Origin: Actinomycetes bacterium
GTDB taxonomy: Bacteria > Actinomycetota > Actinomycetes > Mycobacteriales > Mycobacteriaceae
DNA: 10,242 nucleotides
Assembly: GCA_022600695.1 (NCBI GenBank)
Contig: JAHZJY010000294.1
Location: forward strand, 1-10,242
Direction of reading: 5' to 3'
Of this stretch, positions 7,686 to 10,123 are shown piece by piece. The notes under the pieces are model-generated. The model searched no databases. It was not told where the DNA came from and was given only the letters and a program-made list of their open reading frames with translations. The position numbers and the translations under genes are program-made. Every line of letters starts with the position of its first letter. The first letter of the stretch is position 1.

Positions 7686-7811
7686 TCAGCGCTGGGTACT
7701 GCAGGCGCACTGCTGGGTGGTCGGCACGGTGGCCATGACCTGGTCGACATGCTCGCCGCAGCCACCCCAGGTGGTCTTGTGGCAACGCGGACATTCAACG
7801 GGGTAGCACAT
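7686..7811 (-). CDS. Small cysteine-rich protein (41 aa), thioredoxin-linked
   Basis: This 41-residue ORF is preceded by a very strong ribosome site (GGAGGAGGAG), six bases before its ATG and 24 bp after the thioredoxin stop. Six cysteines are visible: C2, C7, C10, C18, C35 and C37. They form MCYPVECPRC, then WGGCGEH with His11 and His21 nearby, and a terminal CAC. The C7-x2-C10 and C35-x-C37 pairs suggest a small metal (zinc or iron) site or a redox/sulfur-carrying protein. I recall similar short MCYPV-type proteins in many bacteria, all uncharacterised, so the family is probably real, but no function can be assigned. Its place behind thioredoxin and the CstR-type operators points to thiol or sulfane-sulfur metabolism. 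It is too short for many gene finders. Confidence 0.85.
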   Translation of the reverse strand: MCYPVECPRCHKTTWGGCGEHVDQVMATVPTTQQCACSTQR

Positions 7812-7835
7812 GATTCTCCTCCTCCGGTCCAGAGC

Positions 7836-8231
7836 TCAGACGGATGTGGCATCCGATGTGGCGGCCTCGGCGGCGATCTTCGCGCTGATCTCGGCGCGGA
7901 CCGCATCCATGTCGAGTTCCTTGATTTTGGTGATCAGGTCCTCCAACGCCGGGGCGGGAAGCGCGCCGGGCTGGGCGAACAAAAGCACCCCGTCGCGGAA
8001 CGCCATGATGGTGGGGATCGACCGGATCTGCAGGGCGCCGGCCAACTGCTCTTCCACCTCGGTGTTGACCTTGGCGTGCACCACGTCGGGATGCGCGGTC
8101 GCTGAACTCTCGAAGACCGGCGCGAAACTGCGGCACGGGCCGCACCACGACGCCCAGAAGTCGATGAGCACGATCGAGTTGTCGGCGATGGTCGACTCGA
8201 AGTCGGTTGTGGTCAACTCGACGGTGGTCAT
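7836..8231 (-). CDS. Thioredoxin with C-terminal extension
   Basis: The protein has 131 residues, with the active site WASWCGPC (WCGPC at 29-33) and the conserved cis-Pro segment RSIPTIMAF. The core is a normal thioredoxin of about 105 residues. The tail (DMDAVRAEISAKIAAEAATSD) is an extra charged, Ala-rich helix. The sequence resembles my memory of M. tuberculosis Rv1471, a thioredoxin with a similar tail. The start at 8231 (MTTVELT) is preceded by AAAGGA at good spacing; a longer in-frame reading from 8297 would run through the operator region and is rejected. It would reduce protein disulfides and, in this context, persulfides. It is divergent from the rhodanese gene, and operator 8291-8304 lies about 60 bp upstream of its ATG, next to a possible -10 TAAAAT (8309 down to 8304). 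Confidence 0.95.
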   Translation of the reverse strand: MTTVELTTTDFESTIADNSIVLIDFWASWCGPCRSFAPVFESSATAHPDVVHAKVNTEVEEQLAGALQIRSIPTIMAFRDGVLLFAQPGALPAPALEDLITKIKELDMDAVRAEISAKIAAEAATSDATSV

Positions 8232-8290
8232 GGGCGGGTCCTTTCGGATCGGTAGCCGGTGCCCGACTCGGACACCTGTGCGGATACAAG

Positions 8291-8304
8291 TACCCATGGG
8301 GGTA
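8291..8304. promoter_or_regulatory. CsoR/CstR-type operator 1
   Basis: TACCC-ATGG-GGGTA, a perfect 5+5 inverted repeat with a 4-bp spacer. It abuts the possible leftward -10 TAAAAT and would therefore control the thioredoxin unit. C-tract/G-tract arms with flanking TA are typical of operators of the copper/persulfide-sensing CsoR family, and such a regulator is encoded at 9854-10123. Confidence 0.75.
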
Positions 8305-8324
8305 TTTTATTCCCGTCTTGCCAG

Positions 8325-8338
8325 TACCCCGTCGGGTA
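8325..8338. promoter_or_regulatory. CsoR/CstR-type operator 2
   Basis: TACCC-CGTC-GGGTA, the same arms and spacer length as the neighbouring sites. Its right end overlaps TATGTT (8337-8342), a candidate rightward -10 box, so binding here would block the rhodanese promoter. Confidence 0.78.
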
Positions 8339-8356
8339 TGTTTACATTGGCTCACA

Positions 8357-8370
8357 TACCCCACAGGGTA
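8357..8370. promoter_or_regulatory. CsoR/CstR-type operator 3
   Basis: TACCC-CACA-GGGTA. With the flanking A and T the palindrome extends to 16 bp (ATACCC/GGGTAT), the longest of the four copies. It lies between the candidate rightward start and the rhodanese ribosome site, a roadblock position. Confidence 0.8.
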
Positions 8371-8391
8371 TCGAACAGATGAGGAGAACCG

Positions 8392-8976
8392 ATGTCTACA
8401 GCCGCCGTGGTCAGTGCCGCCGAACTCCGCGAGTTGATGGCGTCCCCGACGTCACCCCGCGTCATCGATGTCCGTACGTCGGGCGAATTCGAGACGGTGC
8501 ACATCGCCGGTGCGTACAACGTTCCGCTGGACCTGCTGCGCGAACACCGCGATGAGATCCGCGCACATCTGGACGAGCAGGTTGTCCTGGTGTGTCAGTC
8601 CGGGCAGCGCGCCGCGCAGGCCGAGGACGCCCTTCGGGCGGGCGGGCTGTCCAACGTGCACATTCTCGACGGTGGCATGAGTGGCTGGCAGAGCGCCGGG
8701 TTCGCTGTCAACCGCGGTGCCCAGCGCTGGGATCTGCAACGTCAGGTCCGATTGGTGGCCGGGACGATCGTCGTGCTGAGCCTGCTGGCCGCAATCGTGA
8801 TACCCGGGATGCAGTGGGTGGCCTTCGCGATCGGCGCCGGCCTGATGATCAGCGCGATCACCAACACCTGCGCGATGGGCATGATGCTGGCCAAGCTGCC
8901 CTACAACCGCGGCCCGGCCTGCGATGCGCAGACCGTCGTCGCCCAACTCGTCGGTTCCGCGCCCGACCGGAAGTGA
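8392..8976 (+). CDS. Rhodanese-DUF2892 membrane protein (YgaP-like)
   Basis: The protein has 194 residues. Residues 5-105 form a single rhodanese domain with the active-site loop VCQSGQRA (Cys68), which would carry a persulfide and move sulfane sulfur to an acceptor. VIDVRTSGEFETVHIAGAYNVPL is the usual entry motif. From about 120 to 172 two membrane segments follow, ending in ITNTCAMGMMLAKLPYNR (Cys160), the DUF2892 signature. The order rhodanese plus two helices is that of E. coli YgaP. The rhodanese domain is likely cytoplasmic at the membrane. GAGGAGA upstream supports the ATG at 8392. The stop is 7 bp before the TauE/SafE gene, so transfer and export of sulfur are probably co-expressed. 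Three CstR-type operators precede it. Confidence 0.93.
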   Translation: MSTAAVVSAAELRELMASPTSPRVIDVRTSGEFETVHIAGAYNVPLDLLREHRDEIRAHLDEQVVLVCQSGQRAAQAEDALRAGGLSNVHILDGGMSGWQSAGFAVNRGAQRWDLQRQVRLVAGTIVVLSLLAAIVIPGMQWVAFAIGAGLMISAITNTCAMGMMLAKLPYNRGPACDAQTVVAQLVGSAPDRK

Positions 8977-8983
8977 TACTCCG

Positions 8984-9844
8984 ATGATCGCGCTCACCGT
9001 CGTCTTGGCCGTCTTCGTCGGGATTGCACTCGGACTGCTGGGCGGCGGTGGCTCGATCCTGACCGTTCCCCTGTTGGCCTATGTGGCCGGGATGGACGCC
9101 AAGCAGGCCATCGCCACCTCGTTGCTGGTCGTGGGTACGACCAGTGTGGTGGCGGCCGTCTCGCACGCTCGCGCCGGGCGGGTTCAGTGGCGTACCGGAT
9201 TGGTCTTCGGCGCGGCGGGCATGGTCGGCGCGTACGCCGGTGGTGTGTTGGCCCGATTCATTCCCGGCAGTGTGCTGCTGATCGGCTTCGCCGTCATGAT
9301 GATCGCCACCGCCGTGGCGATGCTGCGGGGCCGTAAGGAGGTCGGCCCGGCCGATCCCGGCCACCGCATCCCGGTCCCGAAGGTCATCGTCGAGGGCCTC
9401 GTCGTCGGCTTGGTCACCGGACTGGTCGGCGCCGGCGGCGGCTTTCTGGTTGTTCCCGCGCTGGCCCTCCTGGGTGGGCTGCCGATGCCGGTCGCGGTCG
9501 GCACTTCGCTGGTGGTCATCGCGATGAAGTCCTTCGCCGGCTTCGCCGGTTATCTCAGCAGCGTCGCGATCGACTGGAAGGTGGCGGGGATGGTTACCGC
9601 CGCCGCGGTCCTCGGGGCGCTGCTCGGCGCCCGACTGACCGCGTTGGTCAACCCCGACTCGTTGCGTAAGGCGTTCGGCTGGTTCGTGATGGTGATGTCG
9701 TCGGTGATTCTCTTCGAGGAGGTTCATCCGCTACTCGGCACCGCCATGGCTGTGCTGACGATCGTCGCCGCGATTGTCTACTACATCCGCGATCGCCGGG
9801 GGACCGATACCCCGGCGGGTACGCTCGACACCATTAAATCCTGA
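8984..9844 (+). CDS. TauE/SafE family sulfur-anion exporter
   Basis: The protein has 286 residues, almost all hydrophobic, with about eight predicted membrane segments in two halves. Each half carries the family's glycine-rich motif: LGLLGGGGSILTVPLLAYVAG near the N terminus, and VTGLVGAGGGFLVVPALALLGG near residue 150. TauE/SafE proteins move sulfite, sulfoacetate or related sulfur anions. In the S. aureus cst operon a TauE protein sits beside persulfide-handling enzymes. The ATG at 8984 has GGAAG about ten bases upstream and lies just after the rhodanese stop. The 3' end contains a perfect operator (9808-9821), and its stop overlaps the ribosome site of the repressor gene. The exported ion (sulfite, thiosulfate or other) cannot be read from sequence. 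Confidence 0.92.
   Translation: MIALTVVLAVFVGIALGLLGGGGSILTVPLLAYVAGMDAKQAIATSLLVVGTTSVVAAVSHARAGRVQWRTGLVFGAAGMVGAYAGGVLARFIPGSVLLIGFAVMMIATAVAMLRGRKEVGPADPGHRIPVPKVIVEGLVVGLVTGLVGAGGGFLVVPALALLGGLPMPVAVGTSLVVIAMKSFAGFAGYLSSVAIDWKVAGMVTAAAVLGALLGARLTALVNPDSLRKAFGWFVMVMSSVILFEEVHPLLGTAMAVLTIVAAIVYYIRDRRGTDTPAGTLDTIKS
9808..9821. promoter_or_regulatory. CsoR/CstR-type operator 4, inside the exporter gene
   Basis: TACCC-CGGC-GGGTA, with arms and spacer length identical to the three sites at 8291-8370. It lies in codons for Asp-Thr-Pro-Ala-Gly-Thr near the exporter C terminus, 32 bp before the repressor ATG. The location suggests local control of the repressor gene or a roadblock to operon read-through. 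No clear -10 box was identified beside it. Confidence 0.65.
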
Positions 9845-9853
9845 GGAGGGGTC

Positions 9854-10123
9854 ATGGTCGGTAACGAAACCGCCATCACTGATGTGCTGAACCGGTTGCG
9901 CCGCGCGCAGGGGCAACTGGCGGGTGTGATCTCGATGATCGAGACGGGCCGGGAGTGCAAGGACGTGGTCACCCAACTCGCGGCGGTGTCGCGGGCTCTG
10001 GATCGGGCCGGGTTCAAGATCGTGGCAACGGGCCTCCGTGAGTGTGTCCTCGGCGAGTCCGCCGACGGCTCCGCGCCGATGACCGAGGCCGAGTTGGAGA
10101 AGCTCTTCCTGTCCCTCGCCTGA
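9854..10123 (+). CDS. cstR: CsoR-family repressor, CstR (persulfide-sensing) type
   Basis: This all-helical repressor of 89 residues has the CsoR/RcnR DUF156 pattern: [23 protein letters not shown], then [27 protein letters not shown]. The thiols are C35 and C64, 29 residues apart as in S. aureus CstR (C31/C60). The copper-sensor His that should lie four residues before the second Cys is Gly60, and FrmR/RcnR-type ligands (His near the N terminus) are also absent. This matches CstR, which links its two cysteines through sulfur bridges when persulfides rise and releases DNA. The ribosome site GAGGAGGG overlaps the exporter stop. The four TACCC-N4-GGGTA sites in and before this operon are its probable targets. 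A CsoR-like protein sensing another thiol reagent is the main alternative. Confidence 0.88.

Follow-up and report, generated by a model that had tools for sequence, protein, structure and literature searches.

A repeated operator points to CstR-type control of a divergent thioredoxin and rhodanese module in a mycobacterial draft genome

Introduction

Contig JAHZJY010000294.1 of an Actinomycetes bacterium (Mycobacteriaceae; assembly GCA_022600695.1, a draft that totals 2.82 Mb over 401 contigs and is 86% complete) raises the question of whether two divergent gene arms, separated by a region with a repeated palindrome, answer to a single repressor, and to which signal. The window, meaning the whole stretch of 10,242 nucleotides that was analysed, carries a leftward arm encoding a thioredoxin and a 41-residue Cys-rich protein (CRP), and a rightward arm encoding a rhodanese, a predicted TauE/SafE anion exporter and a predicted DUF156 repressor; this arrangement, described in an earlier note made from the sequence, is confirmed by the open reading frames (ORFs) and their Pfam matches (Table 1). 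The comparative analysis presented here makes it highly probable that a CstR-type repressor controls both arms and its own gene through shared operators, responds to persulfide, and acts in trans on a CstB-like gene located elsewhere in the genome. Published systems are compared throughout on the basis of excerpts of the cited papers.

Operator sites in the window and in the draft genome

Four perfect TACCC-N4-GGGTA sites are present in the window: the three between the divergent arms, as the earlier note had them, and one before the repressor gene, which it had missed. The mean number of exact sites expected by chance in the window is 0.01, and four were reached in none of 200 dinucleotide shuffles. 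When compared with the related motif ATACC-N6-GGTAT, site 3 is a full match, while sites 1, 2 and 4 are off by eye at one outermost base.

The whole draft genome contains eight exact sites, four of them in the window. On contig C252, one exact operator and one site with a single mismatch lie 34 bp apart upstream of a gene encoding a CstB-like protein, which combines a metallo-β-lactamase (MBL) domain (PF00753) and two rhodanese stretches (PF00581) in one chain, matches 3tp9 and 3r2u over nearly its full length, and displays HxHxDxxxxxH and CAGGYR by eye. The protein thus has the CstB architecture of an MBL-fold dioxygenase joined to a rhodanese, and is a putative enzyme of this kind. The circuit in the window had been called complete; this persulfide dioxygenase-rhodanese sits on another contig and not in the window. 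On contig C198 (L002:1501-1957), a lipoprotein-type rhodanese, probably a further target of the repressor, has an ATG whose A is also the last base of an exact operator. The two remaining exact sites, on contigs C61 and C393, have no module gene within the stretch examined.

Spacings of up to 150 bp between operators in the window and in 60 regions fetched from relatives cluster at 21 and 34–35 bp. They show no clean 10.5-bp phase, and the idea of helical phasing was dropped.

The repressor and its tie to the operator

The 60 regions, which represent the best matches and not all matches, together with the window yielded a set of 62 CstR-like genes. Cys35 and Cys64 are present in all 62, and position 60 is Gly in 61 and Ser in one. 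An exact operator lies within 250 bp upstream of 51 of the 62 genes, while 50 Markov resamplings gave an average of 0.02 of 62. Fifty repressor genes of the 60 regions have an operator, and for 48 of them it is separated from the ATG by a gap of 29–51 bp.

Copper sensors are distinguished by a Cys-His-Cys copper site, of which the CstR type lacks the copper-ligand His. In the window repressor this His is replaced by Gly, and the RicR model scores 42.2 bits against a cut-off of 175. The protein matches eight PDB sequences, including 7mq1-7mq3, which are labelled csoR and which we take to be CstR structures. The corresponding protein of S. aureus, CstR, has its cysteines at C31 and C60 (PMC5480029).

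In the genomes examined, the operator itself goes with one of the two classes. Eight relative genomes contain 31 DUF156 genes, of which 30 had their loci counted (the gene left out, L096, is CstR-type and has an operator). Exact operators were found within 350 bp upstream of 14 of 19 CstR-type genes, and of none of the 11 copper-type (C-H-C) genes, whose loci of about 3 kb contain no exact operator anywhere. With its DUF156 fold, its two cysteines and the kinds of genes that it would target, the window repressor is assigned to the CstR type and not to the copper type, as had been proposed for it.

Operators before module genes in relatives

In the eight relative genomes, 74 exact operator sites were found, as against 26 for the reversed motif. 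Of these, 52 stand upstream of a match to the repressor, CstB-like, rhodanese-type, TauE or thioredoxin genes, at a distance of no more than 400 bp. The 22 sites away from module genes are no more numerous than the 26 reversed-motif matches; when 21 of these were examined with a rough rule that takes the longest ORF, 14 were located within a long ORF and seven between ORFs. A C4 or G4 tract is found in 49 of the 52 module sites and in 10 of the 22 others.

Operators within 250 bp upstream were then counted gene by gene, with the reversed motif as a control, in the 60 regions and in 80 named loci, the latter being the best 80 of at least 592 stretches, at least 562 of them relatives, that matched the CRP in a scan of named genomes. 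Genes were dropped if they scored below a per-gene floor, if the match started past residue 25, or if less than 150 bp of upstream DNA was available; some genomes are present in both sets (L047 and L220, for example, come from the same one), and relatives do not count as independent observations. An operator precedes 30/32 CstB-like genes in the regions and 23/23 in the named loci, 16/18 and 11/14 rhodanese genes, 50/60 and 25/48 repressor genes, 6/13 and 12/21 thioredoxin genes, and 8/32 and 6/34 TauE genes; the reversed motif precedes none in either set. What the DNA shows directly, in the genomes examined, is which genes are present, that the operator recurs, that it goes with CstR-type genes and not with copper-type ones, and that relatives have it ahead of module genes.

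In 7 of the 60 regions and 18 of the 80 named loci, a CRP gene directly follows a thioredoxin gene on its strand. In two genomes of the same genus, L148 and L198, thioredoxin-CRP pairs stand under an operator with no repressor gene nearby; the order in L148, CRP-thioredoxin, two operators 33 bp apart, and rhodanese, is a copy of the centre of the window. These pairs and the upstream counts back, at the level of comparative sequence, the proposal that one regulator governs both divergent arms, which is very probably the case, and the suggested search of related genomes recovered both the motif before module genes and the gene order. Likewise at the sequence level, mycobacteria and other actinobacteria have a sulfur-stress regulon that a single motif labels, which allows its members to be recognised from the DNA.

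As a separate observation, at L206:2031-4386 an operator pair 34 bp apart precedes a TauE-CstB pair, and no repressor match was found in the 5.6 kb stretch.

The Cys-rich protein

Of 61 genomes, its own included, 27 carry the CRP, at 38 places in all. Of 30 of these loci that were examined, 22 have an operator or a match to the repressor, a CstB-like gene or thioredoxin within about 1.5 kb, and eight do not. Among the best 80 named loci, a CstR-like match is present in 48 and an exact operator anywhere in the locus in 68; 38 have an operator within 250 bp upstream of the CRP gene itself (reversed motif, 0), and the 876 kb of these loci hold 134 operators and no reversed motif. The operator share in this set is biased upward because the loci are those closest to the CRP of the window. 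Operator-bearing loci come from Mycobacterium, Rhodococcus, Corynebacterium, Nocardia, Arthrobacter, Cryobacterium and Kineosporia, among others. In an even draw of the class, the CRP was found in 98 of 246 genomes (own included); in 30 loci from this draw, with 1.5 kb flanks and with the window and G004 included, an operator lies within 250 bp upstream in four and anywhere in eight, and an operator or module-type match was counted by hand in 17. This uneven occurrence indicates that the CRP belongs to a wider family, many but not all of whose genes are linked to the operator. The tiny, uncharacterised family looks like a frequent regulon member in actinobacteria, with a role that is directly testable.

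No Pfam family matches the CRP at E≤0.1, and the only NCBIfam match is below its cut-off. In an alignment of 64 rows, C2, C7, C10 and C35 are invariant and C37 is present in 58. The motif C-x2-C-x7-C-x2-H is found in 64/64 rows, with K12, W15, C18 and H21 all invariant, these four being fixed by the scan pattern itself for 55 rows; a relative from another search (L167) has Tyr for Trp15. The AlphaFold model from this alignment (pLDDT 77, pTM 0.40) is a hairpin-helix with strands 3–6 and 13–16 around C7-x2-C10 and a helix at 19–28, C18 and H21 being placed at the helix start. A model from 18 rows (pLDDT 67) has the same three elements and an extra short helix. The predicted fold would suit a small zinc finger.

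Tentatively, and with considerable doubt, the CRP may belong to the actinobacterial persulfide regulon as a dedicated component, being a mini zinc-Cys protein that works with the adjacent thioredoxin and, under attack of persulfides on thiolates, releases or protects zinc or accepts sulfane sulfur. MymT is a small Cys-rich copper protein of the RicR regulon; if this assignment is true, a dedicated CRP would be its sulfur counterpart. Exposure to sulfide elicits a zinc-limitation response in S. aureus (PMC5480029), a reported link with which the presence of a zinc-Cys protein in a regulon of this kind would agree. A search of open-licence PMC for a small Cys-rich protein in CstR-type circuits found no matching paper; the link may be in print elsewhere.

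In small-genome actinobacteria, stand-alone CRP genes adjoin genes for membrane proteins: PF03601 (L358, and L369 by similarity), FUSC_2 (L363) and a Na+/H+ antiporter (L359). These neighbours differ and give no single hint, and assignment of a role from them was dropped. At L356:1501-3160 a CRP gene is followed by one for a pyridine nucleotide-disulphide oxidoreductase, which might, as a guess, be of the CoA-persulfide reductase kind. A CRP relative also occurs in a Myxococcaceae metagenome-assembled genome (L251:6001), perhaps mis-binned, with no exact operator in 12 kb. Rv1766, a candidate M. tuberculosis counterpart, was not adopted; excerpts of one paper that names Rv1766 give no sulfur role.

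Points against and alternative explanations

Several observations weigh against control of the module by a persulfide-responsive, CstR-type repressor. Exact upstream operators are missing at 11 of the 62 CstR-like genes (one of which has just 69 bp of upstream DNA) and at 5 of the 19 CstR-type genes of the eight relatives, two of these five having a one-mismatch site, and no operator stands directly upstream of 7/13 and 9/21 thioredoxin genes. Class-wide, CRP genes often occur without an operator or sulfur neighbours, and 15 of 20 further hand-chosen CRP loci, mostly from small genomes, contain neither an operator nor a module-type match. A search for sigma-70-like promoters over 7650-10242 found none. 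In addition, the ScCsoR motif resembles the RicR sites of M. tuberculosis (PMC7533328), and in that organism the copper regulons of both CsoR and RicR went up with the H2S donor GYY4137 (PMC7711268, a review); cross-talk is therefore possible.

These last two points also speak for an alternative in which the operators belong to a copper sensor of the CsoR/RicR type and copper is what the module responds to. The draft genome does contain one DUF156 gene besides that of the window, on contig C197, with C-H-C residues by eye; no exact operator was found in its 3.2 kb locus, however, and the absence of the operator from copper-type genes in relatives, together with the missing ligand His of the window repressor, renders a copper response very unlikely. 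A second alternative is that the repressor governs only the rightward rhodanese-TauE-cstR operon, the thioredoxin-CRP arm being adjacent by chance and separately regulated. The three sites between the arms share one intergenic region, so position alone cannot assign them to the left arm, and operator-free CRP genes are common in the class; yet thioredoxin-CRP pairs are found under exact operators away from repressor genes (L148, L198), and operators directly precede thioredoxin and CRP genes at the frequencies given above, which makes a chance neighbourhood most improbable. A formaldehyde sensor of the FrmR type is so improbable as to be nearly negligible. The DUF156 family is shared, and the NCBIfam FrmR model matches weakly, at 28.4 bits where the cut-off is 133; but the FrmR-specific Pro2 next to Cys35 (PMC5016687) is missing, Val being present at this position in the window and Val or Ile in 54 of the 62 CstR-like sequences, and the domain search revealed no formaldehyde dehydrogenase among the module genes of the window. 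The copper and FrmR explanations were accordingly set aside on the residue 60 and Pro2 checks and the operator counts.

Relation to known systems and a model for the module

A close precedent is ScCsoR (SCO0620) of S. coelicolor, which is associated with a persulfide dioxygenase (PDO), a rhodanese and TauE; its binding motif is ATACC-N6-GGTAT, and polysulfide releases it via Cys37 (PMC7533328). This circuit shares with the window genome a two-Cys CsoR-like repressor, a near-identical operator, a rhodanese, TauE, a persulfide dioxygenase, two sites in the pdo promoter and self-regulation. An actinobacterial CsoR-type sulfane-sulfur circuit is thus already in print. The thioredoxin and Cys-rich genes are additions, not being among the four genes of the ScCsoR circuit as excerpted, and the dioxygenase of the window genome, unlike that of S. 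coelicolor, is a CstB-type fusion on another contig. The genes under CstR control in S. aureus include cstA, cstB and sqr, and tauE goes up when cstR is deleted (PMC5480029). The CstR-type repressor, CstB-type dioxygenase-sulfurtransferase, TauE and a sulfurtransferase (CstA) are common to this operon and the window genome, whereas in the latter the genes are split over several loci and thioredoxin and the Cys-rich gene are added.

The earlier note regarded both of these as additions to the known cst gene content. By sequence both do belong to the regulon, but thioredoxin has a precedent in print: the CstR-like YrkD of B. licheniformis represses a cluster with a rhodanese, a PDO, TauE and a hypothetical thioredoxin, YdfQ (PMC9918477). 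The repressor, rhodanese, TauE and thioredoxin are shared with the window; the yrkD genes form one 11-gene cluster with NreBC and SQR, and a Cys-rich gene is not mentioned in the excerpts of that paper. Thioredoxin (SoxW) is likewise a target of the CsoR-family sulfur regulator TTHA1953 of Thermus thermophilus (PMC10318464), which differs in its Sox pathway and its operator, TACNNTACNNNNGTANNGTA. The thioredoxin genes of S. coelicolor are driven by AdpA, and more H2S was released when they were overexpressed (PMC9952706). Given the ScCsoR, CstR and YrkD precedents, the window represents a variation on an established circuit, in which the thioredoxin-CRP arm is the addition and the CRP the unfamiliar piece.

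We propose a model in which DNA binding, the inducer, co-transcription, the enzyme activities and the CRP role are inferred, and in which repression, release by persulfide, thioredoxin reduction, rhodanese transfer, CstB-like oxidation and TauE export are modelled on the precedents named above. The repressor, bound to the palindromes at 8291-8370 and 9808-9821, would shut both divergent promoters and its own promoter until a build-up of persulfide or polysulfide modifies Cys35, with the assistance of Cys64, and the repressor leaves the DNA. From the rightward arm, the membrane rhodanese would then take over sulfane sulfur and TauE would export an oxidised product, probably sulfite or thiosulfate. 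From the leftward arm, thioredoxin would reduce persulfides and polysulfides to sulfide, and the CRP would, as a guess, guard or buffer zinc or persulfide, probably as a small zinc-binding or thiol protein. The same repressor would act in trans on the CstB-like persulfide dioxygenase-rhodanese, which would carry out the oxidation step, and probably on the lipoprotein rhodanese.

Features of the window and neighbouring genes

Table 1. Genes and operator sites of the divergent module in the window
Feature	Coordinates	Strand	Basis and remarks
CRP, 41-aa Cys-rich protein, C-x2-C-x7-C-x2-H	7686..7811	-	ORF; second gene of leftward arm
Thioredoxin, WCGPC	7836..8231	-	PF00085 1.2e-23; TIGR01068 97.3 bits vs cut-off 96.8; first gene of leftward arm
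Operator 1, TACCCATGGGGGTA	8291..8304	.	exact motif match
Operator 2, TACCCCGTCGGGTA	8325..8338	.	exact motif match; 34 bp from operator 1
Operator 3, TACCCCACAGGGTA	8357..8370	.	exact motif match; with flanks full ATACC-N6-GGTAT (published ScCsoR motif)
Rhodanese with YgaP-like transmembrane domain	8392..8976	+	PF00581 7.1e-20; PF11127 4.8e-8
TauE/SafE anion exporter (predicted)	8984..9844	+	PF01925 2.9e-53 over 9005-9844; ATG 8984 preferred by eye
Operator 4, TACCCCGGCGGGTA	9808..9821	.	exact motif match; in tauE 3' end, 32 bp before repressor ATG 9854
CstR-type DUF156 repressor (predicted)	9854..10123	+	PF02583 6.7e-23; Cys35, Cys64, Gly60 (CsoR: His)

The thioredoxin and CRP genes are separated by 24 bp. 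A 153-aa thioredoxin ORF starting from 8297 was rejected in favour of the start at 8231 because its ATG falls inside an operator. A thioredoxin paralogue on contig C131 is 56% identical to that of the window, and its 3.3 kb locus contains no exact operator. The rhodanese has the loop CQSGQR by eye, and its structure matches include YgaP structures.

The module adjoins a run of hydrogenase-maturation genes (1524-7481), which by eye comprises hypB, hypA, hypF, hypC, hypD and hypE; HypE, the sole hyp gene checked by domain search, was confirmed by its AIRS domains. A HypE match occurs in the same stretch as the module in 3 of the 60 regions and 7 of the 80 named loci.

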